Of a DNA stretch of 43,488 nucleotides, positions 2,406 through 17,743 are shown in pieces (the stretch's first letter is position 1; each line of letters opens with the position of its first letter). The DNA comes from Endomicrobiaceae bacterium (GTDB taxonomy: Bacteria; Elusimicrobiota; Endomicrobiia; Endomicrobiales; Endomicrobiaceae): NCBI GenBank assembly GCA_028711215.1, contig JAQTSO010000010.1, positions 1 through 43,488 of the forward strand, given 5' to 3'. A program made the translations under genes and the position numbers. The notes beneath the pieces are model-generated. The model searched no databases, had not been told where the DNA came from, and worked only from the letters and a program-made list of their open reading frames with translations.

Positions 2406-4361
2406 ATGCTTAAGAAAATTTGGATTTCACTTTTATTGATTGCTTTAACAACATCTTTCACATCTGTTTTAACTGCCGGTTCAAAAAAAGAAGATAAAAA
2501 AACACAACGCACACAGATAAACATTCAAACTCCCGGGACAGAAGAATTTGTTGACTATGAAAAATACGGTGAGTTCCAAAATCTCGGAACAGACAAATAT
2601 AAATATACAATTAAAGACCACGTAGGTTTAAAGCAGGCATCCGGCGAAGGCATCTTTCCAAACGTAGCAGATGTTTATAAAAGTCCTGATTTCAAAAAAC
2701 TTAAAAGAGAAAAAAAATTAGATGGCGATAAGTGGGCATTTGTTAATACAATGGATCCTCGTGCAAATTACTATAAATGGGCAACCGCACAAGAGGAACC
2801 GGGTGTAAAACAATATTACACAGCTCTTGCTTTAGAACAGGCAGGAGACTATAAACGTGCAGTAAAAGCATATCATGCAATAGCAGTGTTTTTTCCAAAA
2901 TCAACAGGTGTTACATTTTGGAAAACACCTTGGTATGTGGCACCGGTAGCTATTGAAAAAATTAAATATTTAACAAGAGAACATAAAGATTTAGGAGTTA
3001 AACTTGTTGACGGCGAAATTGATATTATCGGCAAGTATGATGATGATAAATCAAATGACGATTTTATAGTAAATCCGGGAAAAATAGTTCCGGCAAAACC
3101 TGAAGACTGGATTTTAAAGAAAGCAGATTTGGATTCCATAGGAATAAAAAAAGTTATAGGTAAAGGTAAAGTAAAACTTGTAGAATATAATAACAAACAT
3201 TATCAGTTAATGGTTGATGATAAACCATATGTTATGAGAGCGATTTGCTATTCGCCTACGCCGGTAGGCTTAACCCCCGATAACGGAAGCGTTAACGTTT
3301 CAAAAGATTGGTCTTGGGCTGATTATAATAAAAATAAAATAATTGACGGACCTTATGAATCATGGGTAGATGCAAATAAAAATAACAAAAAAGACAGAAA
3401 AGAAAAAGTAGTCGGTGATTTTCAACTAATGAAGGAAATGGGGATAAACACAATAAGAATTTATGATTATCCGAGCGTTAATAAAGAAGTATTAAAAGAC
3501 GGATATGAAAGATTTAATTTTATGTATATGATAGGAAATTTTTTGGGTATGTACGGTGCTCATTCCGGTGCAGGATGGTTTGAAGGTACGGATTATACAA
3601 ATCCACAACACCGCGAAAATATGTTAAACAGCGTAAGGCAAATGGTTGAAGAATATAAGAATGAACCATATGTATTGATGTGGGTTCTCGGCAATGAAAA
3701 TAATTACGGGACAGTTGGTGTTGTCGGTGTAAGTGCAGGCACATCATGTAATGTAAGAAAAGATCCCGCTTCATACTACAAATTTGTAAATGAATGTGCA
3801 AAACTCATTAAGGAATTAGATCCTCAACAAAGACCGGTAGCAATATGTAACGGTGATTTGTTATTTATGGATATATGTGCTAAAAATGCACCTGATTTGG
3901 ATATATACGGAGCCAATGCTTACAGAGGAAAAGAAGGATTCGGGATGCTTTGGAAAGATGTATCTAAATTATACGAAAAACCTGCAATTATAACTGAATA
4001 CGGATGTCCCGCTTACAGTAAATATTTAACATTTTCAGAAAATGAAGACGAACAGGCAGAATATCACAAAGGAAGCTGGACTCATATGGAAGAAAATTTT
4101 GCCGGATTTGGTTCAGGCAACGCTTTGGGCGGAGTAATATTTGAGTGGACTGATGAATGGTGGAAATCAGGGCCACCGCCTGAATTCGATCAGAATAAAC
4201 AAGACTTAATAGGTCAGTGGATGGGGCCGTTCATAGATGGTTGGGCATATGAAGAATGGTTTGGATTATGTTCCATAGGTGACGGGAAACACGGACCTTT
4301 TAAAAGACAATTAAGAAAATCTTACTTTACATATAAAGAGCTATGGGAAAAATACAAATAA
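2406..4361 (+). CDS. Exported glycoside-hydrolase-like protein with TPR-like N-domain and EF-hand-like loops
   Basis: This 651-residue protein has an N-terminal signal peptide (MLKKIWIS to about residue 24) and a perfect AGGAGG six nt before the ATG. Residues of about 110-170 look helical and TPR-like (YYTALALEQAGDYKRAVKAY). From about residue 255 the protein is homologous to the next gene and has a GH-A clan TIM-barrel look close to the GH2 catalytic domain. LMWVLGNEN places the likely acid/base at E431, and IITEYG places the likely nucleophile at E531. Before the barrel, DYNKNKIIDG (306-315) followed by DANKNNKKDRKE resembles paired EF-hand or dockerin-type calcium loops. The likely role is hydrolysis or transglycosylation of a beta-linked glycan in the periplasm or at the surface; the substrate is unknown. 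The N-domain is absent from the paralogue. Confidence 0.78.
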   Translation: MLKKIWISLLLIALTTSFTSVLTAGSKKEDKKTQRTQINIQTPGTEEFVDYEKYGEFQNLGTDKYKYTIKDHVGLKQASGEGIFPNVADVYKSPDFKKLKREKKLDGDKWAFVNTMDPRANYYKWATAQEEPGVKQYYTALALEQAGDYKRAVKAYHAIAVFFPKSTGVTFWKTPWYVAPVAIEKIKYLTREHKDLGVKLVDGEIDIIGKYDDDKSNDDFIVNPGKIVPAKPEDWILKKADLDSIGIKKVIGKGKVKLVEYNNKHYQLMVDDKPYVMRAICYSPTPVGLTPDNGSVNVSKDWSWADYNKNKIIDGPYESWVDANKNNKKDRKEKVVGDFQLMKEMGINTIRIYDYPSVNKEVLKDGYERFNFMYMIGNFLGMYGAHSGAGWFEGTDYTNPQHRENMLNSVRQMVEEYKNEPYVLMWVLGNENNYGTVGVVGVSAGTSCNVRKDPASYYKFVNECAKLIKELDPQQRPVAICNGDLLFMDICAKNAPDLDIYGANAYRGKEGFGMLWKDVSKLYEKPAIITEYGCPAYSKYLTFSENEDEQAEYHKGSWTHMEENFAGFGSGNALGGVIFEWTDEWWKSGPPPEFDQNKQDLIGQWMGPFIDGWAYEEWFGLCSIGDGKHGPFKRQLRKSYFTYKELWEKYK

Positions 4362-5623
4362 TATTTACAAGATTAATAATCCCTTTTTTTATTATCATTT
4401 TTAGTTTTTCTTTTATTTATTCGCAAGAACAAACAGAAAAGAAGCTTGGAAACGGCATTGTTCAGTTGATACAAGATGAAGACGGTGTGTGGAGAATTAC
4501 CGTTAACGGTCAATCATATTTTATTAAGGGAATTGAATATTCTGCTGATATTGTGGGCAATAGACCCGATGTTAATGATTGGATGTGGTCTGATTTAAAC
4601 GATAACGGTAAAATAGACGGTCCGTACGATTCATGGATTGATTTTAACAGAAACAGTTATCAAGACGCTGATGAAAATGTTATCGGCGATTTCTCTTTAC
4701 TAAAAGCTATGGGTTGCAATACAATCAGAATATATCATTCCGAAAATATTAACAAAGAACTTTTAAGAGATTTATATAATAAATACGGCATCAGAGTAAT
4801 AATGGGAAATTATCTTGGTGCATACACAAAAGGAAGCGATGCTAATTGGGAAAAAGGAACAGATTACACCGATGATGATCAACGCAGAAAAATGTTGGAC
4901 AGTGTAAGAAAAATGGTTGAGAAACATAAGGATGAACCGTATGTGTTGATGTGGATGCTTGGCAATGAAAACGATGTTACGGGAGATCACGGTAATTCAA
5001 CGAAAACAAATACAAATGCTCATTTATACCCGGTTGAATTTGCTAAATTTTTGGAAGAAGCCTGCAAAATGATAAAAAAAATTGATACAAATCATCCTGT
5101 CGGAGTTTGTAATGCAACAACAAGATTTGTAAAATTTTATGCGAAATATACTCCGAGTGTAGACGTTCTCGGATTTAATCAGTATTCAGGACCTTACGGT
5201 TTTGGAGTTTTATGGAGAAAAATTAAACAAGAGTTTGACAGACCGGTTGTAATTACGGAATATGGTTGTGATGCATACAATCAAACTAAACAAACTACTG
5301 ATGAAGAGTTTCAAGTAAGATATCATAAGCGTGCATGGAAAGATATAGAACAAAACGGTTACTGGGGAAAAGGTGAGGGTAATTCAATAGGCGGATTTGT
5401 TTATTGTTGGCTTGATAAATGGTGGTTAGTCGGATCAAGTAAAGAACATGATACATTACTGGGTGCGTGGAAAGGACCGAAAAGTGATAATTTTTTTCAT
5501 GATGAATGGCTTGGAGTTTGCGATCAAGGAAAAGGGATGCATAGTCCCTTTAAAAGATATTTGAGAAATATATATTTTTTATATCAGGAAGAACTCTGGA
5601 ATTGGGATCCTGCAGTTTATTAA
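4343..5623 (+). CDS. Exported glycoside-hydrolase-like protein, paralogue of the upstream gene
   Basis: The 426-residue product starts within the last 19 nt of the preceding gene, implying translational coupling. The first 27 residues (MGKIQIIFTRL then a hydrophobic stretch ending FSFIYS) form a signal peptide. The rest parallels the C-terminal 400 residues of the upstream protein. It shares the EF-hand-like loop DLNDNGKIDG (84-93), VIGDFSLLKAMGCNTIRIY, LMWMLGNEND with the presumed acid/base E209, and VVITEYGCDAY with the presumed nucleophile E306. Both proteins end with a conserved HxPFKRxLRxxYF motif. This looks like tandem duplication followed by divergence, perhaps giving two enzymes for one glycan. 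A GH2/GH5-like fold is a confident inference, the reaction is not. Confidence 0.78.
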   Translation: MGKIQIIFTRLIIPFFIIIFSFSFIYSQEQTEKKLGNGIVQLIQDEDGVWRITVNGQSYFIKGIEYSADIVGNRPDVNDWMWSDLNDNGKIDGPYDSWIDFNRNSYQDADENVIGDFSLLKAMGCNTIRIYHSENINKELLRDLYNKYGIRVIMGNYLGAYTKGSDANWEKGTDYTDDDQRRKMLDSVRKMVEKHKDEPYVLMWMLGNENDVTGDHGNSTKTNTNAHLYPVEFAKFLEEACKMIKKIDTNHPVGVCNATTRFVKFYAKYTPSVDVLGFNQYSGPYGFGVLWRKIKQEFDRPVVITEYGCDAYNQTKQTTDEEFQVRYHKRAWKDIEQNGYWGKGEGNSIGGFVYCWLDKWWLVGSSKEHDTLLGAWKGPKSDNFFHDEWLGVCDQGKGMHSPFKRYLRNIYFLYQEELWNWDPAVY

Positions 5624-5695: not shown

Positions 5696-8641
5696 ATGTC
5701 AGAAAACGAGCAATCTAAGCAAGTGGAAATATCTGACGGACTTGATTTTGGTTTGTTTATTAATAGGCAATATGTCACTGTAAAACGCATAGGCGTTGGT
5801 GGTTTCGGTACAGTTTGGCAAGCGTATGATTTTAGTTTAAGAAATTTTATAGCAATAAAAGAACTTTTACCCGTGTATGCGGAACCAAAGTTTGTTGAGA
5901 TGTTCTACAAAGAAGCTCTTATCGCAAAAAATATAATCCACGACAATATAGTCAGAGTTCAGCATTTTTGGAAAGGGTCCAACGGAACATTTTATGTTGT
6001 GCTTGATTACATAAGAGGCGTTGACCTTGAAACTTTAATAAGAAAATGCAACCAAGAAAAAGTTCTTATTCCTTGGCAGTTATCCACCCTAATATGTATA
6101 AATGTTTTAAAGGCAATTGATTATGCAAACAGGATAGCCAGAGATTCAATTACCGGAAATCCCTATGGAATTGTTTATAGAGATATTTCTCCCGGCAATG
6201 TTCTTTTGTCGTTTGACGGAAATGTTAAACTGAGTGATTTCGGTATTGCTAAAACTGCCGATGAAATCAAGGATTCTATCCCGCAGAAAGTAATTGCAGG
6301 AAAATATCCGTATATGTCACCCGAACAAATTAAAGGGCAGTCTGATATTGATCACAGAACAGATATTTTTTCCGTTGCAGTTTTATTTTATGAAATGTTA
6401 ACGGGACACCAACTTTATCAGGGAACAAATGAAGAAATAAAAGCGCAGGTTCTCGGTAAAAAATTTGATACCGAAGGATTAAATGCACCGGGAGTTCCTC
6501 ATGAAATGTTTGAGGTTATATCCAAAGCTTTAGAAAAAGACAGAGATGTACGTTATGAAAAAGCAATAGAAATGTACAGAGATATCAGACGCATTTTAAA
6601 AGGTGTAGATACGGATGATTTATCTATTGAACTTTCGGAATTTGTAGTTAAAATTATGAAAGAGAATGTTATAAAATCCGAAAAATTGGTAGAAAATGTC
6701 AAGTCGTTAACCGTAGCAGAACTTGAACGTAATTCTAAGATACCAAAAATTCAATGTTATGATTTTATAGTCGGTCAACAGGCAAATGCTCAGGGTTCCG
6801 GTATGAATCCGGACCAACCTCAATCTCAATATTTTCAACAACAAGCACCGCAATCAAATGTTCAGCAACAACAACCGTCTCAGATAAAAGCCGAAGAAAG
6901 ACGACAGCCTTCATTAAGAGTTGAAGCAAAGGGGAAAACTGTTTTTGAAGAAGTCGGTGATTGGTTGTTTAAAAAATTCGATGAATTAAAGAAAACAATA
7001 TTAAAAATTGTTATAGCAATATTTTTAGCAGTACTTGTACTTGCCGTTGCCGATGTGTTTTTTCAGATTACTCCGTTCGGTAAAAAAGTTTATGATACGA
7101 TGAATCCGCCGGATGTTGTTATATCTACAGTTCCTTCCGGGGCCGTTGTCAGTATGAAAACCAAAAGTGGAGAAGTTATATTGAATAATATATCTTCTGC
7201 TGCCGAAATTCCTGTAAGAAAGGTTAAACCCGGATCATATATTGTTACAGCATTAAAAGAAGGTTTTAGACCCGTTCAAAGAGTTGTTCAAATAGAAGGA
7301 CAAAAAAAAGCCAGAAAAGGTGCCAGAGAAAAAGTAGAGATAATGTTTGATTTTGTATTGAATGTTGAATCTGTGCCATCCGGCGCGAGCGTTTATGTTG
7401 ACGGCAACAAGTTTGGGACAACTCCGTGCAAAGCACAGCTTTTAGCTGCTCCGCACACAATAAGGCTTGCCATGGAAGGTTTTGAAGATTTGGGGTCCAA
7501 TGCAAAAGAAAGAAAAGAGGGACAGTGTAATGTTGACTTTACAATGTCATCTGTAAGTGAAATTTTTGCGGAAGTTGATAAGAGATTTTGGGAATGTGAA
7601 CTTAAAAATATAGATAGTGAAAATGTTTTCAGTGTTAAGGGTAATTTATTTAAAAAGATGAATGTAACCTCGGAGCCAAAAGGTATGATGATTCACGTTC
7701 AGGGAGAATCTCAACCTAGAGGGAATACACCATTAAATACATCGTTTAAACTGGGGACATATAATATTAGATTTTTAGATCCCTCCGCCAGATATGGGGA
7801 ATGTGTAAAGGAAGTTAAAGTTGATGCCCAGTCAGATCCAAATGTTTTTGTCAAGATGAATAAATTTGTAACATTCAGAGTCAGATCCAAAGATAATCCC
7901 GGCGATACATTTATAACAAAGGTAAGAATTTCAAATAGAAATGTTTCGATTACAAAAGATATTTCTACTTCAAAACCGATACGTATTGCTTTACCGGTTG
8001 AAACTTTTGATGTTGTTTTTTATGGTGATGCGGAATACAAAAGTTATAAAGTTTCGAATGTAAATATTGATAATGTAAGCACTGTGACAGGTGAGTTGGA
8101 ATATGCAAAAGTTGACTTTACTATAGCTGTTAAATCTGCAACAAACTCACAACCACAGGAAGCATATATATGGCAGGGCAAAAAGTTATTAGGTAAAACA
8201 GAAGCTAACGGATTGTTTAAAGGAAGTTTAGTGCCGGGTAAATATGAGTTGAAAGTTATTTCAAAAGGATTTGATGACCAAATATTAAAAATGGATCTAA
8301 ATACCAAGGGCAACAATAATATTGATGTATTTGTATTAGAACCTCAGTCGGATGTTTCTACATCAACAAATACAATAACGACAACAGAATCAACATCAAA
8401 TAAAGTTTTAGTTGATAATTTTAAAAAGCCACAACCAAAAGAAGAATACAAATTTAATCCTAAAAGAAAAGAAGTTAAGAAAAAAAGTGAGGCTTTGAAC
8501 TCAGAAATAGATCAGGAAGTACAGGAACCCGCAAACGTTGAACAGCAGGTTGTAGTTTGTATGTATTGCGGATATGTTAATACAGTTCCTAAGGGTAAGA
8601 GACTTAGATTTTGTGTAAATTGCGCCAAACCATTGAAGTAA
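5696..8641 (+). CDS. Membrane Ser/Thr protein kinase with PEGA repeats and C-terminal zinc ribbon
   Basis: The 981-residue protein has a Hanks-type kinase at about residues 25-300. The glycine loop is GVGGFGTVWQAY and the ATP-binding lysine is K55. The catalytic loop is YRDISPGNV (D163, N168; Tyr replaces His of HRD), followed by SDFGIAK (D181) and PYMSPEQIKG. A Gln/Pro-rich linker follows, then one membrane helix at about 435-458. Outside lie PEGA-type repeats (VPSGAVVSM, VPSGASVYVDGNKFGTTP, SEPKGMMIHV), then a carboxypeptidase-regulatory-like domain (about 805-870). The last 30 residues hold two CxxC pairs (C955/C958 and C973/C976), a zinc-ribbon pattern. It probably phosphorylates Thr in partners read by the FHA protein encoded further along and reversed by the PP2C. 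A single-helix topology would put the zinc ribbon in the periplasm, which is odd. Confidence 0.93.
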   Translation: MSENEQSKQVEISDGLDFGLFINRQYVTVKRIGVGGFGTVWQAYDFSLRNFIAIKELLPVYAEPKFVEMFYKEALIAKNIIHDNIVRVQHFWKGSNGTFYVVLDYIRGVDLETLIRKCNQEKVLIPWQLSTLICINVLKAIDYANRIARDSITGNPYGIVYRDISPGNVLLSFDGNVKLSDFGIAKTADEIKDSIPQKVIAGKYPYMSPEQIKGQSDIDHRTDIFSVAVLFYEMLTGHQLYQGTNEEIKAQVLGKKFDTEGLNAPGVPHEMFEVISKALEKDRDVRYEKAIEMYRDIRRILKGVDTDDLSIELSEFVVKIMKENVIKSEKLVENVKSLTVAELERNSKIPKIQCYDFIVGQQANAQGSGMNPDQPQSQYFQQQAPQSNVQQQQPSQIKAEERRQPSLRVEAKGKTVFEEVGDWLFKKFDELKKTILKIVIAIFLAVLVLAVADVFFQITPFGKKVYDTMNPPDVVISTVPSGAVVSMKTKSGEVILNNISSAAEIPVRKVKPGSYIVTALKEGFRPVQRVVQIEGQKKARKGAREKVEIMFDFVLNVESVPSGASVYVDGNKFGTTPCKAQLLAAPHTIRLAMEGFEDLGSNAKERKEGQCNVDFTMSSVSEIFAEVDKRFWECELKNIDSENVFSVKGNLFKKMNVTSEPKGMMIHVQGESQPRGNTPLNTSFKLGTYNIRFLDPSARYGECVKEVKVDAQSDPNVFVKMNKFVTFRVRSKDNPGDTFITKVRISNRNVSITKDISTSKPIRIALPVETFDVVFYGDAEYKSYKVSNVNIDNVSTVTGELEYAKVDFTIAVKSATNSQPQEAYIWQGKKLLGKTEANGLFKGSLVPGKYELKVISKGFDDQILKMDLNTKGNNNIDVFVLEPQSDVSTSTNTITTTESTSNKVLVDNFKKPQPKEEYKFNPKRKEVKKKSEALNSEIDQEVQEPANVEQQVVVCMYCGYVNTVPKGKRLRFCVNCAKPLK

Positions 8642-8658
8642 TTTTTATGGAGAATACA

Positions 8659-10482
8659 ATGAAAAAATTATTGTTTTTTTTGTCTTTGTTGTTGTTTTGC
8701 GGGGTACTGGTTTATGCAGATGTCCCGAAAAAACTTAATGTGCAGGGGAAACTAACTTCAGATTCAGGTCAGGTTTTGTCTGAAAAGCCATTTTCTGCAG
8801 TATTGCATCTTAGAGTTGCCGGTTCATCCACGGTCAATAATCCGGTTGATACAAAGGCTGGGACAACAGACAGTAACGGGTTGTATAGTATCAATTTTAA
8901 TGTAGCTAACTTTAGTTATGATGCGGGGGCAGATTTCAAAATTGTAATTACCGTAGACAGTCAGGTAATATCAACAGATTGGGCAGACATTGCTACTAAT
9001 CCGTATTCTTTTTACTCTTCCACGGCAACTTATTCAATATTATCAGCAAATGCGATTACTGCATCATCAATGACAGTAACCGGAGCAGGAAATGATTTGT
9101 TCTGGGGTTATAATTCGGCAGGTAATGCCCAATTATGGCGTACAGTTATAGTTTCAACTGCAAATGTTACAGGGTTATCGTCTGCAACTGTAGCCAACGC
9201 AACAAATGCGACTAATGCAACAATAGCAACAACTGCAGTCAGAGCGACATCTATGACGGTAGCTGGTGCTCCAGCAAATAATTTGTTTTGGGGATATGAT
9301 GCAGGTGGCACGTCTCAGGATTGGCGAATAGTTCTGGTATCAACACCTAATGTTACAGGATTATCAGGTGCAACTGTAGCCAATGCAACAAATGCGACAA
9401 ATGCGACTAATGCAACAAACGCAACTAATGCAACAATAGCAACAACTGCAGTCAGAGCAACATCGATGACAGTAACCGGAGCAGGAAATGATTTGTTCTG
9501 GGGTTATAATTCGGCAGGTAATGCCCAATTATGGCGTACAGTAATAGTATCAAGCTCAAATGTTACAGGATTATCAGGTGCAACTGTAGCCAATGCAACT
9601 AATGCGACCAATGCAACTAATGCAACGACAGCTACGACAGCAACGACAGCAGTCAGAGCGACATCAATGACTGTAACAGGATCAGGAAATGATTTGTTTT
9701 GGGGATATGATTCAGGTGGCGTAAGTCAGGGATGGCGTACAGTTTTAACAACTGTAGGTAACGGATTAACACTTACAGGTAGTACTGTAAGCGTTGCAAA
9801 CGGTACGGGATTAGGATTTAGTGGGTCAACTCTTGTTGTTACTACCGCTCCATATGCTTCAGGAGCAGGAACGGTTGTTGACGGAGCCATAACGGCTGCG
9901 AAAATAGGAACAGCTGCTGTGACGGCTATAAAAATGGCAAGTAGCTCAGTTGTTGAAGATAAAATAGCAACCGGAGCTGTTACTGAAAATAAAATAGCAA
10001 GCGGAGCTATTGATTCGGGACATTTTAAATATGAAAGTGATTATGGTCATATATACGATATAAAAGTTGCAACAGCAGCTTATGCAGAAACTTCCGGAGC
10101 TGACCTTGCGGAAATATATGCTTCAAGTGAAGTGTTGACTCCCGGTGATATAGTTTCGATAGATTTATCAAAAGATAATTCAATAGTAAAAACAAAAGTG
10201 GCAGAAGATACTTTAGTTGCCGGTGTAATTTCAACTAAGCCGGGTTTATTGATGAATAAAAGTGAAAAAGGATATGAATTGGCGATGGTAGGAAAAGTAC
10301 CGACGAAAGTTTGTAATGAAGGTGGCAGTATAAAGAGGGGAGATTTATTAGTTTCTGCTTCAATAGAAGGATATGCAAAGAAAGCAAGTGATAATCCTAA
10401 AACAGGAACCGTTATAGGTAAAGCACTTGAGAATTTTGATTCCGTAAACGGAATAATTTTAGTATTGGTGAACCTACAATGA
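8659..10482 (+). CDS. Exported repeat-rich protein with (Asn-Ala-Thr)n tracts and conserved C-terminal domain
   Basis: I place the start at 8659 because GGAGA lies 5 nt upstream and a signal peptide follows at once (MKKLLFFLSLLLFCGVLVYA); an in-frame ATG at 8647 is the alternative. The mature N-terminus (PKKLNVQGKLTSDSGQVLS) looks like a beta-sandwich with a transthyretin-like DSNGLYSINF strand. Residues 137-370 hold four repeats starting SMTV.G..NDLFWGYxxxGxxQxWRTV. The first three end in VANATNAT tracts with 3, 6 and 4 NAT triplets. The C-terminal 130 residues (DLAEIYASSEVLTPGDIVSID to GTVIGKALENF) resemble a domain I recall at the end of other large bacterial secreted proteins. The likely role is a fibrous surface or secreted protein served by the neighbouring PorV-like barrel; function is unknown. 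Confidence 0.82.
   Translation: MKKLLFFLSLLLFCGVLVYADVPKKLNVQGKLTSDSGQVLSEKPFSAVLHLRVAGSSTVNNPVDTKAGTTDSNGLYSINFNVANFSYDAGADFKIVITVDSQVISTDWADIATNPYSFYSSTATYSILSANAITASSMTVTGAGNDLFWGYNSAGNAQLWRTVIVSTANVTGLSSATVANATNATNATIATTAVRATSMTVAGAPANNLFWGYDAGGTSQDWRIVLVSTPNVTGLSGATVANATNATNATNATNATNATIATTAVRATSMTVTGAGNDLFWGYNSAGNAQLWRTVIVSSSNVTGLSGATVANATNATNATNATTATTATTAVRATSMTVTGSGNDLFWGYDSGGVSQGWRTVLTTVGNGLTLTGSTVSVANGTGLGFSGSTLVVTTAPYASGAGTVVDGAITAAKIGTAAVTAIKMASSSVVEDKIATGAVTENKIASGAIDSGHFKYESDYGHIYDIKVATAAYAETSGADLAEIYASSEVLTPGDIVSIDLSKDNSIVKTKVAEDTLVAGVISTKPGLLMNKSEKGYELAMVGKVPTKVCNEGGSIKRGDLLVSASIEGYAKKASDNPKTGTVIGKALENFDSVNGIILVLVNLQ
9067..9771 (+). repeat. Four in-frame repeats of about 183-213 bp with internal 9-bp (AAYGCNACN) units
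   Basis: Repeats start at 9067, 9250, 9463 and 9664. Repeats 1 and 3 share 77 identical bases (9070-9146 and 9466-9542) although repeat 2 between them differs, which suggests recent gene conversion. The NAT tracts (9196-9222, 9382-9435, 9592-9627) differ by whole 9-bp units, as expected for slippage that keeps frame. Confidence 0.85.
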
Positions 10483-11654
10483 TGAAAAAAATAAATCTGA
10501 TTTTGGTAGCATTATTGTTTTTTTCAGTTTCTGGGACCTCAGAAGCTGCAAAGACTTTTGTTGTTGTTGCCGGCGGAGCAGCTTCCGGTAACAGTGCTCT
10601 GGCAAAAACATCTGCTTTTACAGGACAGTCTTCACTTGTTTCCGGTGAAGCAAGAACAAAAGACTTGGTCTTGCAATCAGGATTTCCTTCGGTTATCACT
10701 AAAGCTCCAAATACAAATATAACTTTTGTAAATTTAACAGGTACGGAAACTTTCCCCACGCAAACGGTAACAGTCAGAATTCAAATAAATTGTGCAAGCG
10801 GATTTGACATAAATAAAGTAAGGTATGCAATAGCAGAGGGACAAAATGCGGAGTTTGGTGAACAAATTGATTATACAGTGACTCCCAGCACGTCGGTTAT
10901 TTTCAATCAGGAAATAAATTTTAGTCAAGGGCAATCTGTAAACAGAGTTTACCTTTATGCCCAGGATGCGGATCCTGCAAATGTTTTTGGTAATGAGACT
11001 CAAATTGTTGTCAATACTGCAGGTAGTTTAGGTGATGTTGCATTCATATCTCCTGACCCTGTAACAAAATTAACTACATTAAATCCTACAATACATACAA
11101 CGATGTTTTCACTTGGTGTTTCAAGTGCTACTGTAAAATTATACAGCGGGACGTCAGCCGGCGGAACAGCTATATACGATGTTCAGGTAAGCACTGCGAT
11201 TATAAATTCAGCAGGAGAAATCTATTATCAAAATTCACTGCTTATGCCGGGCGGGATAAATCTTACGGCAAATGCAGATTATACTTTGGTAGTTGATTTT
11301 GATAACACATATCCGGATATTGAATTAACATTTAAAGCTCTGGACGGCGGAGTAGCAGATATTTTAACTTATCCGTCACCTTTTAATCCTAATAACAATG
11401 AAAAAATTAAAATAAGATATTTACTTGCAAAAGACGGACAAGTTACAATCAATTTGTACAATAAAGCCGGTAAAATTGTAAGAAAACTCATATCTTCGGC
11501 GAGTAGAAGTTTCGGTACTAATGAGGAAGAGTGGGATGGCAGAAATTATGCGGGAGAAATTCTCGCAACTGGTCCATATATCTGTGAAATTATAACAAGA
11601 AGTGCAGATGGCGAAGCCAGAAGATATACTGCACTTGCTATAGTGGGTAAATAA
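10479..11654 (+). CDS. Exported protein with C-terminal FlgD-like/sorting-type Ig domain
   Basis: The 391-residue protein overlaps the upstream stop by 4 nt (ATGATGA; the second ATG is an equally possible start). It has a signal peptide (MMKKINLILVALLFFSVSG to about residue 24). The middle (25-290) appears to be beta-rich extracellular domains without recognised catalytic motifs. The last 95 residues follow the FlgD_ig / type IX C-terminal-domain pattern: ILTYPSPFNPNNNEKIKIRY, GQVTINLYNKAGKIVRKL, EEWDGRNYAGE, ATGPYICEI. In Bacteroidetes and relatives this module can be the export signal of the type IX secretion system; elsewhere it is simply a C-terminal Ig domain. Its place directly before a PorV-like gene favours, without proving, an export or anchoring role. 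Confidence 0.8.
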   Translation: MMKKINLILVALLFFSVSGTSEAAKTFVVVAGGAASGNSALAKTSAFTGQSSLVSGEARTKDLVLQSGFPSVITKAPNTNITFVNLTGTETFPTQTVTVRIQINCASGFDINKVRYAIAEGQNAEFGEQIDYTVTPSTSVIFNQEINFSQGQSVNRVYLYAQDADPANVFGNETQIVVNTAGSLGDVAFISPDPVTKLTTLNPTIHTTMFSLGVSSATVKLYSGTSAGGTAIYDVQVSTAIINSAGEIYYQNSLLMPGGINLTANADYTLVVDFDNTYPDIELTFKALDGGVADILTYPSPFNPNNNEKIKIRYLLAKDGQVTINLYNKAGKIVRKLISSASRSFGTNEEEWDGRNYAGEILATGPYICEIITRSADGEARRYTALAIVGK

Positions 11655-11656
11655 TT

Positions 11657-12682
11657 ATGATAAAAATAAAAAAATCATTCATCGTAGTACAGATCACATT
11701 GATTGTGTTTTTGGCTTCTAATGTTTTTGCAGGTGTTGATTTAGCTCCTTTTCTAAAGAAAGGAGTTGGTGCAAAGGCAATTGGTATGGGTGGAGCATTT
11801 ACCTCGGTAGCTGATGATCCCAGTGCTATTTATTGGAATCCGGCAGGACTCACTAAAATGCAAATGTATTCTATTTCTACCATGGGTGCGATGGGTACGT
11901 CAGATAAATATCCGGGGTTGAAAGAAATTATTCCGACCCATCAATTTTTTGCAGCAACGATGCCTCTTGCAAATCTTACAGATATTTTTGGTAAGGCCGT
12001 ATTTGGTATTGGTTATATTTCTTCAACGATGGATGGAATACAGCATACTTCTAGTGATGGTAGTCCATTAGGTGGTACAATGAGTCACACAGATAGTGCG
12101 TATTATTTGTCTATGGGTTATCCTGTTTTTACAGGATATAATAGTTTGAGTGTAGGTGCTTCTCTGAAATATATTTCCTATGAGTTTTCGGGTATCAGTG
12201 AATCAGGCAGTGGCATGGATTTTGATGCCGGTGTGCTGTACTCTATGGGAACATTAAATTTTGGTGCAATGTTAACAAAAGGTGTTGAGATAGACAATGA
12301 TAAAGCTCCAATGACAACAAAATTCGGAGTATCTAATAAATTTAAAATCGGAAATAGTTTTCATATTTTAGGTGCAATGGATCTTATCCAAAGACAGGAA
12401 GAACCATTAATAACAAATATAGGTGCTGAATTTGGAATAAGAGAACCTTTAATGTTTGATAATTTTGGAATTAACACAATAAGTTTTAGATTTGGCGTTG
12501 AAGGTTATGCAATAGAAAACAGATATGATATTTCTTCAGCATTAAATGAGTCGGTTGGTTACAATTGTGGATTAGGTATAGATTTATATGTAGCAAGGAC
12601 ATATTTACAATTGGACATTGCATTGCTGAGTGGGAATATGTTTGAGCAAAGTACAAAATTTTCGGTTAATTTTTATTTCTAG
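11657..12682 (+). CDS. PorV/PorQ-like outer-membrane beta-barrel protein
   Basis: This 341-residue protein starts 2 nt after the upstream stop. It has a signal peptide (MIKIKKSFIVVQITLIVFLASNVFA). The mature N-terminus carries the family hallmark GVGAKAIGMGGAFTSVADDPSAIYWNPAGL, as in PorV, UPF0164 and related FadL-like barrels. The rest alternates polar and aromatic or aliphatic residues in barrel-like strands and ends in a C-terminal strand with terminal aromatics (KFSVNFYF), typical of Bam-inserted porins. In type IX secretion PorV is the shuttle that binds C-terminal domains of cargo. The co-encoded FlgD-tailed protein makes a related role conceivable, but no other core type IX genes are in the window. 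Confidence 0.85.
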   Translation: MIKIKKSFIVVQITLIVFLASNVFAGVDLAPFLKKGVGAKAIGMGGAFTSVADDPSAIYWNPAGLTKMQMYSISTMGAMGTSDKYPGLKEIIPTHQFFAATMPLANLTDIFGKAVFGIGYISSTMDGIQHTSSDGSPLGGTMSHTDSAYYLSMGYPVFTGYNSLSVGASLKYISYEFSGISESGSGMDFDAGVLYSMGTLNFGAMLTKGVEIDNDKAPMTTKFGVSNKFKIGNSFHILGAMDLIQRQEEPLITNIGAEFGIREPLMFDNFGINTISFRFGVEGYAIENRYDISSALNESVGYNCGLGIDLYVARTYLQLDIALLSGNMFEQSTKFSVNFYF

Positions 12683-12692
12683 AGGTTAAAAA

Positions 12693-13688
12693 ATGAATAA
12701 AAAACAAATTAGTATTATGTTATCGTTGTCGATTATGTTGCTCAGTGGCACTCCTTTATTTTCAGCAGATAAAAAAGATGTTGCCGATCCGATACTCAAA
12801 GAAGTAATAAATGAATTGTCACCGAAAATGCCGAGATTTGTAGATAAATACGGTCCAAGTATTTTCGTTTCAGACGAACAAGTTACCAGAGCAGGTTTAA
12901 TACTTGCACTTTATGAATATGATAAAAGAAATTCAGTTGCCAGTCTTTCCGCCAACTTTGTTTCGAAAAGAGATTTTGATTTATTAAGTACCAGATTGTC
13001 GTTTATTGAAAAATCAGGCGGAAAATCTTCCGGATCCGGTTCCAGTGTTGATATGATAAAACTTATGAATGACTTAGATCCGAACATGCCAATGTTACTT
13101 GATAATAATTTGGCAAATTCAAAAGTTTTTAAAGATTTACAAAAGAAAGTGGATATGATGGGATTATCGGCTTCTTCAGGTTCAGGTCAGTCTGTTCCTA
13201 ACGTTGCATTGGTAAATATGAAAACAGACATAAATAATTTAAGTAAAAGAATAGAAACTTTTGAAATGAGTTCAAAAAGTACTAATTATACAGGAAAACC
13301 TTCTAAGGAATTGGATGAATTAAAGCTTTCATTTGCCCAGATTCAAAAAAGTTATGTTAATATTGCAAAAAGAATTGACGAATTGGAAAATAGACCTATG
13401 ATGGTATCTGCAAAAGATGGCATAAAAGTCAGCGATGCTCAGATAGAAGGCTTAAATGCAAAAATTAATTCTATCAAAAAAACTGTATCGAGTATTCCTA
13501 CAAACGATTATGTGAAAGCAGAAATAAGCAAAACATCTCAAGATGTAAAAAGATTAGAAAGAAAAATAGATGAAATTGAAAGTTCAGGCGGTTCTGTCGG
13601 CATAAGTGAATCAAAATCTTCAACCGGTACCTTTGCTAAAATAAGTTTGGGTATAACGATGATTGCAGCATTATTTGTAGCAAGATAA
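12693..13688 (+). CDS. Exported coiled-coil protein with N-terminal SLH-like segment
   Basis: This 331-residue protein has AGAGG upstream and a signal peptide (MNKKQISIMLSLSIMLLSGTPLFS). Residues of about 30-90 include FVSDEQVTRAGLILALYEYD, reminiscent of the TRAE-type core of S-layer-homology domains, preceded by ELSPKMPRFVDKYG. A related motif, DLDPNMPMLLDNN, recurs at about residue 125. Residues 165-300 are rich in Lys, Glu, Ser and Leu with coiled-coil heptads. The C-terminus is hydrophobic (FAKISLGITMIAALFVAR), a possible membrane anchor or barrel-edge strand. I infer a periplasm-spanning tether between the outer membrane or wall and the inner membrane, working with the neighbouring PorV and FHA proteins. 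I do not recognise a named family. Confidence 0.68.
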   Translation: MNKKQISIMLSLSIMLLSGTPLFSADKKDVADPILKEVINELSPKMPRFVDKYGPSIFVSDEQVTRAGLILALYEYDKRNSVASLSANFVSKRDFDLLSTRLSFIEKSGGKSSGSGSSVDMIKLMNDLDPNMPMLLDNNLANSKVFKDLQKKVDMMGLSASSGSGQSVPNVALVNMKTDINNLSKRIETFEMSSKSTNYTGKPSKELDELKLSFAQIQKSYVNIAKRIDELENRPMMVSAKDGIKVSDAQIEGLNAKINSIKKTVSSIPTNDYVKAEISKTSQDVKRLERKIDEIESSGGSVGISESKSSTGTFAKISLGITMIAALFVAR

Positions 13689-13717: not shown

Positions 13718-15934
13718 ATGCCAAGAATATTGGTGAAAAAAAGAGAAGAAATAATTTCTGAATATATTGTCAGAAAAACTAAAATAAGAGTTTTGATCGG
13801 TAGTAAGAAAGGCAATGATATTCTAATTGCGGATAAAAATATATCTGAGCAACATTGTGTTATATCGCTGGAGGCATCAGGACAGTATTCGGTTAAGGAT
13901 TTAAATACAATTGCCGGCACTCAATTGAATTCAAGATTAATATCGGAATCGCAGCTAAAATTCGGAGATGAAATTTTTCTTGGCGATTATAAAATTGTTT
14001 TCTTGGACGATATGGCAACAAATAAGTATGATGTTGTGGTACAACAATATTATCTTGTCGGTATTTACGGCAAGTTTTATGGTAAAAAGTTTTTTATAAA
14101 GCAACAAGGTGATACATTTATAGGAAGAGAAAATTTGTCACCCAGAGGCATTGAAAATGATGTTGTTCTTTCCGGCGATATGACGGTATCCAAAGGACAT
14201 GCAAAAGTTACGGCACACGGAGATAAGCATACAATAACCGATATAGGAAGCACCGGCGGAGTTGCCGTAAACGGTGCAAAAGTCGGACAACTTAATACAA
14301 TTCAATTGGCGTTAAATGATGAAATTTCAATAGGCAGAACAATTTTCAGATTTGTTGATTATTTCAGCGAGAATTATTCGTTGCCTTCAAAACAGAAAGT
14401 TGTTATTATGAAAGTTTTTAATTACTTGCATATTTCTGTTACTGTTATTGCATTAATTGTGGCCTGCATGTCTATTTTGAATGGATATAAAGGAATTTCT
14501 ATTTTAAATGACAATCAGGGTAAAATCAGTCTGTCTATCAACCAGGAATGGAATAAGACTATGCCGTTAAGTACACCTGAATCATATGATGTAACTTCAA
14601 CACCGGTAATTGCAAATTTTACAAGTTCCCAAAATAACGTAGCGATGTTAACAAATACCGGATTATTAAATGCATGGGATTTTAAAACCGGTGATCCTAT
14701 ATGGAAACCGTTTGAAATTTATAATTCCGGAGTAGCTTCATTGGTTGCATCTGATATAAATAATGACGGACTGGATGATATTATAGCGGTATCTGAAACA
14801 TCTATGGTGTATATTGTTGACGGACAAACAGGGAATATAATAAGAAAGGAAATATTGGGCGGTGATATTTCAAAATTAACTCCGGTTGTTTGCGATTTGG
14901 ATTCTGACGGTAAAAAAGATATAGTTGTTGCATCTGAAGATGGTACGTTACATTTCTTATATTCTCCGGGTTTTGATACCACATATACTAAACAAACAGA
15001 ATTTATAGACGGACCTATATATGGAAGCCCTATAATAATGTCGAGAAAGAATTTTTCGCCTTTTGTTGTAATTGCCAATTATGACAGCAAGGTTTATTTT
15101 TTAGACGGAAAAACGAGAACAAAAAAAATAGTTAATTTGTTGGAATTATCAGGCAAAGCACATTTGGTTGCAGGCGCGCCTGCTCTTGGGGATATAAACG
15201 GTGACGGCATTGATGAAATTATAGTTCAATCCAGTGTTCCTCAATATATATCAGTTATAGACACTACTAAGTTTTCCGTAATATGGACTTATTTTGTTGA
15301 ACCGACTCCACCGGGTAATATGAAAAATACAACTCCTATTGTATCTGATTTTACCGGCAACGGCATTGGTGACGTTGCTTTTGTTTCTGCAAACGGAACA
15401 ATTCAAATATTAAAAGGAAATACGTCATTCCCTACCGGGGAATTGCTTTGGAATTTTACTATTCCGGGTGCCGGGAAAATTATTTCTTCCCCGTCAGCTT
15501 ATGACTTTGATAAGGATGGAATTTTGGATTTAGTCTTCGGAACGGAAGACGGTCGTATAATAATTGCAAAAAGTAATACAAAAAGGAAAGAAATTGAAAT
15601 ACTTGCAGATTTAAAAGCAAGTAATTCTGCGATAACATCCACTCCGTTAATTGCTGATTTGAACGGGGACAAAAGTATCGAAATTCTTTACACAAATATT
15701 CAAGATGCCATACAGGTTTTAAATACAAATTGTAAAACTTTAAAAAATCTTAAAATATGGCCTATGTTTTTATGTAATTCGGAGCATAATGCCAATTTTT
15801 CATTAAAGACGTATAAAAATAAATATGTCAAGATGTTTGTTTTTGGTATAGTTTTATTTATTTTGGTTGTGTTTTTAAAAATCAGAGGGATTATCAAAAA
15901 AGCTAAGAAAAAAGTTAAGGTTATATATTTATGA
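13718..15934 (+). CDS. Membrane protein with two FHA domains and an FG-GAP/VCBS-type beta-propeller
   Basis: The 738-residue protein has two N-terminal forkhead-associated domains. FHA1 (about 22-100) includes IGSKKGNDILIADKNISEQHC. FHA2 (about 115-215) includes FIGRENLSPRGIENDVVLSG, VSKGHAKV and STGGVAVNG. FHA domains bind phosphothreonine. One membrane helix follows at about 236-255. Next come calcium-type propeller blades: DINNDGLDDIIAV, DLDSDGKKDIVVA, DINGDGIDEIIVQ, DFTGNGIGDVAFV, DFDKDGILDLVFG and DLNGDKSIEILY. A second helix (about 705-723) and a basic tail end the protein. The likely topology is cytoplasmic FHA pair, periplasmic propeller, cytoplasmic tail. It lies between the kinase and its presumed phosphatase and is a strong candidate for the phosphothreonine reader linking the two compartments. 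It overlaps the next gene by 4 nt. Confidence 0.9.
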   Translation: MPRILVKKREEIISEYIVRKTKIRVLIGSKKGNDILIADKNISEQHCVISLEASGQYSVKDLNTIAGTQLNSRLISESQLKFGDEIFLGDYKIVFLDDMATNKYDVVVQQYYLVGIYGKFYGKKFFIKQQGDTFIGRENLSPRGIENDVVLSGDMTVSKGHAKVTAHGDKHTITDIGSTGGVAVNGAKVGQLNTIQLALNDEISIGRTIFRFVDYFSENYSLPSKQKVVIMKVFNYLHISVTVIALIVACMSILNGYKGISILNDNQGKISLSINQEWNKTMPLSTPESYDVTSTPVIANFTSSQNNVAMLTNTGLLNAWDFKTGDPIWKPFEIYNSGVASLVASDINNDGLDDIIAVSETSMVYIVDGQTGNIIRKEILGGDISKLTPVVCDLDSDGKKDIVVASEDGTLHFLYSPGFDTTYTKQTEFIDGPIYGSPIIMSRKNFSPFVVIANYDSKVYFLDGKTRTKKIVNLLELSGKAHLVAGAPALGDINGDGIDEIIVQSSVPQYISVIDTTKFSVIWTYFVEPTPPGNMKNTTPIVSDFTGNGIGDVAFVSANGTIQILKGNTSFPTGELLWNFTIPGAGKIISSPSAYDFDKDGILDLVFGTEDGRIIIAKSNTKRKEIEILADLKASNSAITSTPLIADLNGDKSIEILYTNIQDAIQVLNTNCKTLKNLKIWPMFLCNSEHNANFSLKTYKNKYVKMFVFGIVLFILVVFLKIRGIIKKAKKKVKVIYL

Positions 15935-17355
15935 TTTTATTAAGCGGGTACTGCACCGATAAAGGGTTGTTGAGAACAGAAAATCAGGATTCCTATGGGA
16001 TTTCTGAGGAAACGAGTTTGTTTTTCGTTTGCGACGGGATGGGTGGCGGAGTTGCCGGGGATTTTGCAAGCCGGTATGCCAGAGATATTATATTAACTTC
16101 GTATAAAAGATTAAATGATGAAGAAATTGACGGAATTGTAGACAATTACAAGGAATTTGAAAGTAAAATAGTTCGTGCCGTTTCTGCCATAAGACTTGCT
16201 AACAGAGGTTTATATAATTTGCAGGTAAAATATCCCCTTTTGTCAGGAATGGGAACAACTTTTACCGGGGCTGTATTTGAAAAAGAAAAGAATTTATTAC
16301 ATATTTATAACGTAGGAGACAGCAGGGTATACAGAGTCAGAAACGGAAATATAAAATTATTGACTACTGATCACTCAAAGATAAAGGAATTAATAGACGA
16401 CGGCAAAATGACAGAAGAAGAATCAAAAACTGCAGAAATACAAAGTATGATAACGAGAGCTTTGGGAACAGCTCCGACAGTTAAAATAGATTATAAATCT
16501 GAAATTGTCAAATCGGGAGATGTATATATTTTATGTTCCGACGGGTTAAACGGTGAATTAGAAGATTTTACAATAAGAGATATCGTTCTAACTAATAAAC
16601 CCAATACTGTTTCAATTGCAAACGAACTTGTTTTGGCTGCAAATAATTCAGGAGGAAGAGACAATACAACAGTTGTGGTTTTATATGCACAAGATGAGAT
16701 AAATTTAAATGCGGTAGAAGATGTTTCTCCTCATGAAGATATAGTAATATTTGAATCAGAAACAGGAAAAGAAACGGAAAAAGAAGATGTGTTGATAACC
16801 AGAATTGAAAAAAGTATCGGAATGGAAATTCCAAAGTTAGCTAAGGAAAAAAATGTATTTACCAGTCCGTTGTTTTTAACATTTTTTCTGATATTGCTTG
16901 CAGTAAGTGTTTTCTTTGTGTATTCTCATTTTTATAATTCAGATGTTGAAAAGAAAAGTATAGTTGAGCTTACAGGCAATATTTCCGGTATAAATATTGA
17001 AATAAAAACATTGCCCGATTCTAAAATTAAAGAGATTGAAACAATACGTGATAGGATTTTTAAAATGCAGGTAATACAAGAAGCGCTAAAAGATAAAAAT
17101 TTATTGATTCCGATGTCAAATGTTACAATTATGTTGGAAAAAGACGGTCAAAATAAATTTATGGGATTATCAAGCACAACACCGTTAGAAATTAAATTGC
17201 CGAATGCACAATATAAAATGACGTTAACATATCCTTCTTATAAAATTTTGGATAAAGATTTAAAGTTAAAGGATTTTATATTTCTCAATTTTGAAAATTC
17301 AAATTTGCTATCAAATTTAACGGTTATTATGATTCCAAACGACATAATGACATAG
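15931..17355 (+). CDS. PP2C-family Ser/Thr phosphatase with membrane helix and PEGA-like ectodomain
   Basis: The 474-residue protein starts in an ATGA overlap with the FHA gene. Residues 1-255 carry the PP2C/PppA/Stp motifs: NQDSYGI, FFVCDGMGGGVAGD (metal-binding Asp and Gly), GMGTTFTGAV, YNVGDSRVYRV, CSDGLNG and GGRDNTTVVV. An acidic linker leads to a membrane helix at about 310-333. The remaining 140 residues are extracytoplasmic. Near residues 415-440, STTPLEIKLPNAQYKMTLTYPSY fits a PEGA repeat like those on the kinase. It presumably dephosphorylates the kinase or its substrates in the cytoplasm. Sharing PEGA-type ectodomains would let kinase and phosphatase sense the same periplasmic component; that is inference. 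Confidence 0.92.
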   Translation: MILLSGYCTDKGLLRTENQDSYGISEETSLFFVCDGMGGGVAGDFASRYARDIILTSYKRLNDEEIDGIVDNYKEFESKIVRAVSAIRLANRGLYNLQVKYPLLSGMGTTFTGAVFEKEKNLLHIYNVGDSRVYRVRNGNIKLLTTDHSKIKELIDDGKMTEEESKTAEIQSMITRALGTAPTVKIDYKSEIVKSGDVYILCSDGLNGELEDFTIRDIVLTNKPNTVSIANELVLAANNSGGRDNTTVVVLYAQDEINLNAVEDVSPHEDIVIFESETGKETEKEDVLITRIEKSIGMEIPKLAKEKNVFTSPLFLTFFLILLAVSVFFVYSHFYNSDVEKKSIVELTGNISGINIEIKTLPDSKIKEIETIRDRIFKMQVIQEALKDKNLLIPMSNVTIMLEKDGQNKFMGLSSTTPLEIKLPNAQYKMTLTYPSYKILDKDLKLKDFIFLNFENSNLLSNLTVIMIPNDIMT

Positions 17356-17365
17356 GGGATATCTC

Positions 17366-17743
17366 ATGAACAACAATGAACAGAAGAAAATATTGATAAT
17401 AGATGATGATAAAGTCTTTCTTGATTCGATGTGCGAAATTTTTAAAATTTATAATTTTGATGTTTTTGAAGCACAGACTGCTGAAACAGGATATGAAGCA
17501 CTTGTCGAAATTGTGCCTGATGTGGTGCTTTTGGATATAAATCTTCCTGATAAAAACGGTTTTGACGTTTTAAAAACAATAAGAGAAAGTAAAAATTTCA
17601 CCAATATGATTGTTATATTAATAACAGGAGATTCCGCAGTGGACGTTGATAATGCATTTGACAGCGGAGCGGATGATTGTGTTTTTAAACCTATAGCTGT
17701 CGAAAAATTTATATTAAGGATAAATAAATTATTAAAAAAATGA
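17366..17743 (+). CDS. Single-domain response regulator (receiver only)
   Basis: The product is a 125-residue CheY-like receiver with AGGGG upstream of the ATG. Landmarks are the acidic pocket DDD (13-15), the phosphoacceptor D57 in VVLLDINLPD, T87 in LITGDS and K108 in CVFKPI. There is no output domain, so it must act by protein contact. No histidine kinase is in the window, so its phosphodonor is encoded elsewhere or it serves the Ser/Thr circuit around it. It overlaps the next gene by 4 nt (ATGA), which suggests translational coupling to the PorV-TPR protein. Confidence 0.92.
   Translation: MNNNEQKKILIIDDDKVFLDSMCEIFKIYNFDVFEAQTAETGYEALVEIVPDVVLLDINLPDKNGFDVLKTIRESKNFTNMIVILITGDSAVDVDNAFDSGADDCVFKPIAVEKFILRINKLLKK

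Follow-up and report, generated by a model that had tools for sequence, protein, structure and literature searches.

The stretch of DNA analysed here (the window, 43,488 nucleotides) comes from an Endomicrobiaceae genome of 2.2 Mb (99.6% complete, 8.8% contamination), and contains genes in the order kinase, surface block, coiled-coil protein, FHA-propeller protein, PP2C phosphatase, receiver, PorV-TPR protein, galT and glgA (Table 1). The FHA-propeller gene (13718-15931, forward strand) is an ATG open reading frame for a protein of 738 amino acids, with two FHA domains, a transmembrane helix, an FG-GAP propeller, a second transmembrane helix and a basic tail. It is a real gene, because purifying selection is evident in comparison with a 92%-identical relative (dN/dS about 0.03). 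The nearest named relative of its source is Candidatus Proruminimicrobium (92% identity).

Table 1. Parts of the FHA-propeller gene and its neighbours, with positions in the window
Feature	Position	Strand	Remarks
Hanks-type Ser/Thr kinase (putative writer)	5696..8641	+	one TM (438-456), predicted periplasmic PEGA repeats, C-terminal CxxC...CxxC ribbon
Accessory surface block	8647..12682	+	repeat surface protein, CTD/FlgD-like protein, PorV-like outer-membrane protein
Coiled-coil protein	12693..13688	+	signal peptide, coiled coil, C-terminal hydrophobic segment
FHA1	13718..14008	+	aa 1-97; predicted cytoplasmic FHA fold, degenerate phosphothreonine pocket (GR to GS/N/K; NG to xG; SxxH kept)
FHA2	14048..14365	+	aa 111-216; G136-R137 and S158-x-x-H161 invariant; NGT to GGV
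Transmembrane helix 1	14402..14509	+	aa 229-264 in model; hydrophobic core 236-254
FG-GAP/PQQ-type beta-propeller, eight blades in model	14531..15736	+	strands aa 272-673; predicted periplasmic
Transmembrane helix 2 and Lys/Arg-rich tail	15803..15931	+	aa 696-730 in model; core 704-722; predicted cytoplasmic tail, end KVKVIYL
PP2C phosphatase (putative eraser)	15931..17355	+	TM (314-332), C-terminal PEGA-like domain
Response-regulator receiver domain, stand-alone	17366..17743	+	tandem receiver in deeper relatives

The ATG of the PP2C gene lies within the stop codon of the FHA-propeller gene, and the same 4-bp overlap is found at 15 of 17 loci. Both enzymes have their catalytic motifs (RD and DFG are conserved in the kinase, and the acidic residues of the PP2C are invariant); an FHA gene here lies with a kinase and a PP2C in one cluster. 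Its position between these two genes, and its co-occurrence with them, support a link to Ser/Thr phosphorylation, in line with the cytoplasmic phosphorylation suggested by the original prediction. The catalytic domain of the PP2C resembles PstP (TM-score 0.88 by target), and its domain beyond the transmembrane segment gives a Pfam PEGA match in 4/22 members. The minimal operon, as at locus L058, is kinase - FHA-propeller - PP2C; this core is also intact at three further loci from which the surface block is absent (L049, L050 and L053), the block being lost in reduced genomes that retain the three genes. The accessory neighbour most often retained beside the FHA-propeller gene is that for the coiled-coil protein (12693-13688).

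We draw attention to several other features of this neighbourhood. The zinc-ribbon-like CxxC...CxxC at the C-terminus of the kinase (window 8549-8638, aa ~952-981) is conserved in nearly all orthologs, and the single transmembrane segment of the kinase would put it in the periplasm, an unusual place for such ribbons. The open reading frame 8611-10482 is listed with a TTG start that overlaps the kinase gene, but its likely start is the ATG at 8647 (MENTMKK, as in L001). In deeper families of the order the receiver is a tandem receiver-receiver protein (L041:13695-14456, L042:15621-16403, L043:13687-14439 and L044:13654-14505). Upstream of the operon, two overlapping genes (window 2406-4361 and 4343-5623) each match the TIM barrel of glycosyl hydrolase family 2 and look like a tandem duplication. 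Elsewhere in the genome, a 1779-aa frame (G000:C135:15533-18541) shows similarity to SprA, the translocon of type IX secretion, with a significant E-value but a score short of the curated cut-off; taken with the PorV-like and CTD-like proteins of the operon, it points to a possible type IX system of divergent kind in the genome.

Architecture of the FHA-propeller protein

The domain order proposed from the sequence by the original prediction (FHA pair, helix, propeller, second helix) was upheld by several kinds of evidence. Pfam FHA matches the protein at 93 bits over two regions (25-89 and about 145-214), and FG-GAP_3 does so at 77.8 bits (cut-off 26.9) in six stretches and is matched by all 25 orthologs; these are the only FG-GAP_3 repeats found in the genome. 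An AlphaFold2 model made from an alignment with the 25 orthologs (pLDDT 86, pTM 0.68) has two beta-sandwiches with FHA folds (1-97 and 111-214), a helix at 229-264, eight blades over 272-673 and a helix at 696-730. A hydropathy scan gives hydrophobic segments at 236-254 and 704-722, both helices being present in 25/25 orthologs, and no comparable hydrophobic stretch occurs within the propeller of any of these. The Lys and Arg residues flanking the helices (ortholog averages per 15-residue flank: 3.4 before and 1.8 after the first, 3.0 before and 5.9 after the second) favour the predicted topology, in which the FHA pair lies inside, the propeller outside in the periplasm, as had been supposed, and the basic tail inside, with a margin for the propeller being outside that is weak in some orthologs.

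The motifs GR, SxxH and NG mark phosphothreonine binding in FHA domains (PMC1262709), and we scored these pocket residues, together with domain identities, over the 25 orthologs. In FHA1, GR is absent (position 29 is S, K or N in 25/25) and so is NG (position 66 is T, I, A, S, M or F, and Asn in 0/25), with SxxH retained (S43 in 25/25, H46 in 24/25). In FHA2, G136, R137, S158 and H161 are each present in 25/25, but NG is again missing, NGT having become GGV or GGI (position 180 is G in 24 and S in 1). FHA2 is also the best-conserved domain, with a mean pairwise identity of 0.68 (FHA1, 0.54; propeller, 0.56). These pockets rule out two equivalent phosphothreonine-binding domains, as first envisaged; what survives of that idea is a pair made up of one probable phosphothreonine binder, FHA2, and one degenerate domain, FHA1. 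Since FHA1 lacks both the phosphothreonine-binding Arg and the Asn, and FHA2 the Asn, the protein may bind phosphopeptides weakly or not at all. The top solved-structure match of FHA1 is GarA/OdhI, and the NCBIfam OdhI model matches the protein below threshold (59.6 bits, cut-off 200).

The propeller contains six calcium-type loops of the form Dx[DNT]x[DN](G), starting at residues 346, 393, 492, 544, 596 and 647, in agreement with the expectation of at least six DxDxDG-type repeats; in blade 1 this protein has a degenerate loop and its relatives a canonical one. Structure prediction had been advocated for counting the blades, and in the model the propeller appears to be eight-bladed (a count read from the strands, with strand 272-280 taken as closing blade 8, which it apparently completes). 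The propeller of integrin alpha has seven blades, and a seven-bladed propeller of that type is ruled out by the eight in the model. In Foldseek comparisons of the modelled propeller, structures of BamB came top (TM-scores mostly 0.72-0.79 by target length, 14-16% identity), whereas comparison of sequences favours FG-GAP/VCBS proteins, PQQ_2 (20.3 bits, cut-off 27.6) and TIGR03300 (15.1, cut-off 285.2) both being below threshold. The modelled propeller is therefore BamB-shaped and eight-bladed, with calcium-type loops. The face opposite these loops tends to be conserved, a trend (p = 0.09) that falls short of statistical support.

Distribution, decay and possible origin

Full-length orthologs of the FHA-propeller protein, 45-92% identical to it, are spread over the family and reach into deeper families of the order. 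The gene was found in 38 of 96 genomes of the class (counting those in which it is intact or cut by a contig edge alone, the states being coded by hand from search tables), and in all 38 it is accompanied by genes for the PEGA kinase and for the long PP2C; Fisher values for this co-occurrence ignore relatedness and are not to be taken as probabilities. In three genomes the kinase is found but an intact FHA-propeller gene is not. One (G066) is a fragmented assembly, and in another (G011) the contig stops 3' of the kinase, which makes it a doubtful case of kinase without reader. In the third (G020), kinase and PP2C are kept and the FHA-propeller gene is broken, so loss of the reader can precede that of the two enzymes.

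Gene decay backs this linkage independently. In three reduced symbionts (G040, G052 and G018), kinase, FHA-propeller and PP2C genes are all fragmentary or absent together, while glgA, ftsX, envC and ctp mostly remain, the neighbouring ftsX and envC frames being open. In one genus with small genomes (g3, 0.2-1.4 Mb), the FHA-propeller gene is variously intact, broken or missing; we infer that this genus corresponds to Endomicrobiellum, the flagellate endosymbionts of PMC11257099. Such parallel decay in flagellate symbionts suggests that the system helps these bacteria to cope when they live outside a host cell. All three genes are also absent from an Endomicrobiaceae genome assembled as one contig of 1,588,979 bases (G059, 99% completeness). 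This genome may be that of the isolate Endomicrobium proavitum, in which case the only cultured member may be without the system.

Outside the class, one genome (G335) has the same operon; its FHA-propeller gene is spread over two overlapping reading frames and was not counted as intact. Adjoining that operon is a gene (L068:655-2265) for a protein with an FHA domain of canonical appearance, a GAF domain and an adenylate/guanylate-cyclase-like domain (named by eye, the FHA similarity coming from BLAST). Plasmids gave no tblastn match to the FHA-propeller protein, and spread by plasmids was rejected. Beyond the Elusimicrobiota, coverage consisted of short exact patterns in GTDB contigs, plasmids and the literature.

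In the rest of the Elusimicrobiota, the proteins that match FHA1 best are soluble, about 210-250 amino acids long and encoded beside PP2C and kinase genes (L061-L067, L069-L073 and L075). Like the membrane form they have two FHA-like domains, and they are the closest sequence relatives of FHA1, but they have neither transmembrane helix nor propeller. The operon type to which they belong comprises a CHASE2-kinase, a soluble PP2C and the soluble FHA protein; at the locus checked (L061), the kinase carries CHASE2 instead of PEGA. The two FHA domains have also exchanged condition: in the soluble proteins it is the first that is canonical (GR, SxHH, STNGT) and the second that has degenerated, an order reversed in the membrane form. 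The interdomain linker of the soluble proteins (L061-L067 and others) often contains a motif such as DSEATIVMTP or DKTVVLNS, which is reminiscent of a kinase target and is missing from the membrane form. Two genomes (G088 and G092) have both types of operon. It is plausible that a kinase-PP2C-FHA module was duplicated and that one copy then gained the transmembrane and propeller parts.

What the FHA-propeller protein may do

How might these parts work together? A conversion between cytoplasmic phosphorylation and periplasmic binding state, as the original prediction suggested, is conceivable. We propose that the FHA-propeller protein is a membrane-anchored reader or adaptor that uses an envelope-bound propeller to position or gate the kinase and its phosphatase partner, and we would give this about an even chance of being correct. 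The PEGA kinase would be the writer of the module, the FHA-propeller protein its reader and the membrane PP2C its eraser, probably with the receiver protein as a further member. FHA2, facing the cytoplasm, would bind a phosphothreonine that the neighbouring kinase has formed, most likely in its own chain or in a shared substrate, and FHA1 might be a structural or dimerising domain. The periplasmic propeller, held between two helices, would bind an envelope ligand and, according to whether it was engaged or free, would place or cluster kinase and PP2C at the site of the ligand and so set the level of phosphorylation, the signal passing from outside to inside. Gene linkage, co-inheritance, shared decay and the invariant FHA2 residues speak for this account; against it are the incomplete pockets of both FHA domains, the weak statistics for a conserved propeller face, the genome in which the reader gene alone is broken (G020) and the one that has none of the three genes (G059).

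There are precedents for such adaptor logic. In the GlnH-GlnX-PknG-OdhI cascade, periplasmic state sets the Ser/Thr phosphorylation of an FHA protein (PMC9769921), but GarA and OdhI, the FHA regulators of Actinobacteria, are soluble, with an N-terminal phosphosite and separate sensing proteins, whereas in the Endomicrobiaceae protein reader and envelope domain are on one chain. PknD of M. tuberculosis, a kinase joined by a transmembrane helix to an extracellular beta-propeller that senses osmolarity (PMC4601284), likewise couples an outside propeller to Ser/Thr phospho-signalling, but there the kinase bears the propeller, whereas here the FHA reader does, with eight blades of FG-GAP type in the model and two transmembrane helices.

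The signal might instead run from inside to outside, the balance of kinase and PP2C altering what FHA2 binds and, via the two helices, altering the periplasmic binding of the propeller; the output might be adhesion, or the operon's own PorV/CTD surface proteins might be assembled in this way. The PorV-like, CTD/FlgD-like and coiled-coil envelope proteins encoded beside the gene in most genomes, and the divergent SprA-like protein, would fit this, but at L049, L050, L053 and L058 an intact core persists in the absence of the surface block, which speaks against the surface proteins as an obligatory partner (and the PorV, CTD and coil proteins are weakened as candidates for the obligatory partner of the propeller itself); we consider this reversed direction rather unlikely. 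Just as doubtful, in our judgement, is a structural scaffold in which the FHA domains make protein-protein contacts and read no phosphate, the protein building an inner-membrane complex with kinase and phosphatase. It would be in keeping with the non-canonical pockets of both domains, and with the match of all 25 orthologs to Yop-YscD_cpl: proteins of the YscD/PrgH type also have an N-terminal cytoplasmic FHA fold, then a transmembrane segment and a periplasmic domain, and their cytoplasmic domains are generally thought not to read phosphate. But the periplasmic modules of YscD and PrgH build rings, in contrast to the propeller here; it is kinase and PP2C genes, not those for a secretion ring, that strictly accompany the gene; and the GR and SxxH residues are strictly conserved in FHA2, the very domain that is best conserved overall.

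Most improbable of the readings is a propeller that serves, like BamB, in outer-membrane assembly or as a chaperone, with phosphorylation merely regulating it. BamB does head the structural matches, and the eight-bladed fold predicted for residues 272-673 is shared with BamB and YxaL. Yet eight-bladed propellers look alike in general, identity is low, and the calcium-type FG-GAP loops, the stronger sequence signal, set the protein apart from both, as do its two transmembrane tethers; moreover, BamB is a lipoprotein with no other domains, FHA and transmembrane parts included.

Returning to the FHA-propeller protein as a membrane-anchored reader, its domains and signalling logic are already known, but their arrangement appears to be new. 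In the titles and abstracts of the literature searched we found no description of FHA together with FG-GAP, VCBS or PEGA in such an architecture, in line with the original prediction, and the main text of a genome paper on the family is silent on FHA.

Among the bacterial Ser/Thr systems described so far, it is usually the kinase that carries the envelope sensor (PASTA domains, or the propeller of PknD), and most FHA readers are soluble. In this operon the large envelope domain belongs to the reader, and the phosphatase too is anchored in the membrane. Writer, reader and eraser would then all be transmembrane, each with a predicted envelope domain, and it is possible, although we suggest it only tentatively, that a ligand on the propeller of the reader decides the level of phosphorylation, besides the kinase's own sensor. 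Because the only FHA domains of the genome are those of the FHA-propeller protein, and the only PF13672 (PP2C_2) phosphatase found there is its neighbour (of two PF00069 kinases, the second is on another contig), this one operon may carry most of the FHA/PP2C-based signalling of the genome searched. What the FHA protein reports across the membrane is approachable with purified domains, despite the host being uncultured.
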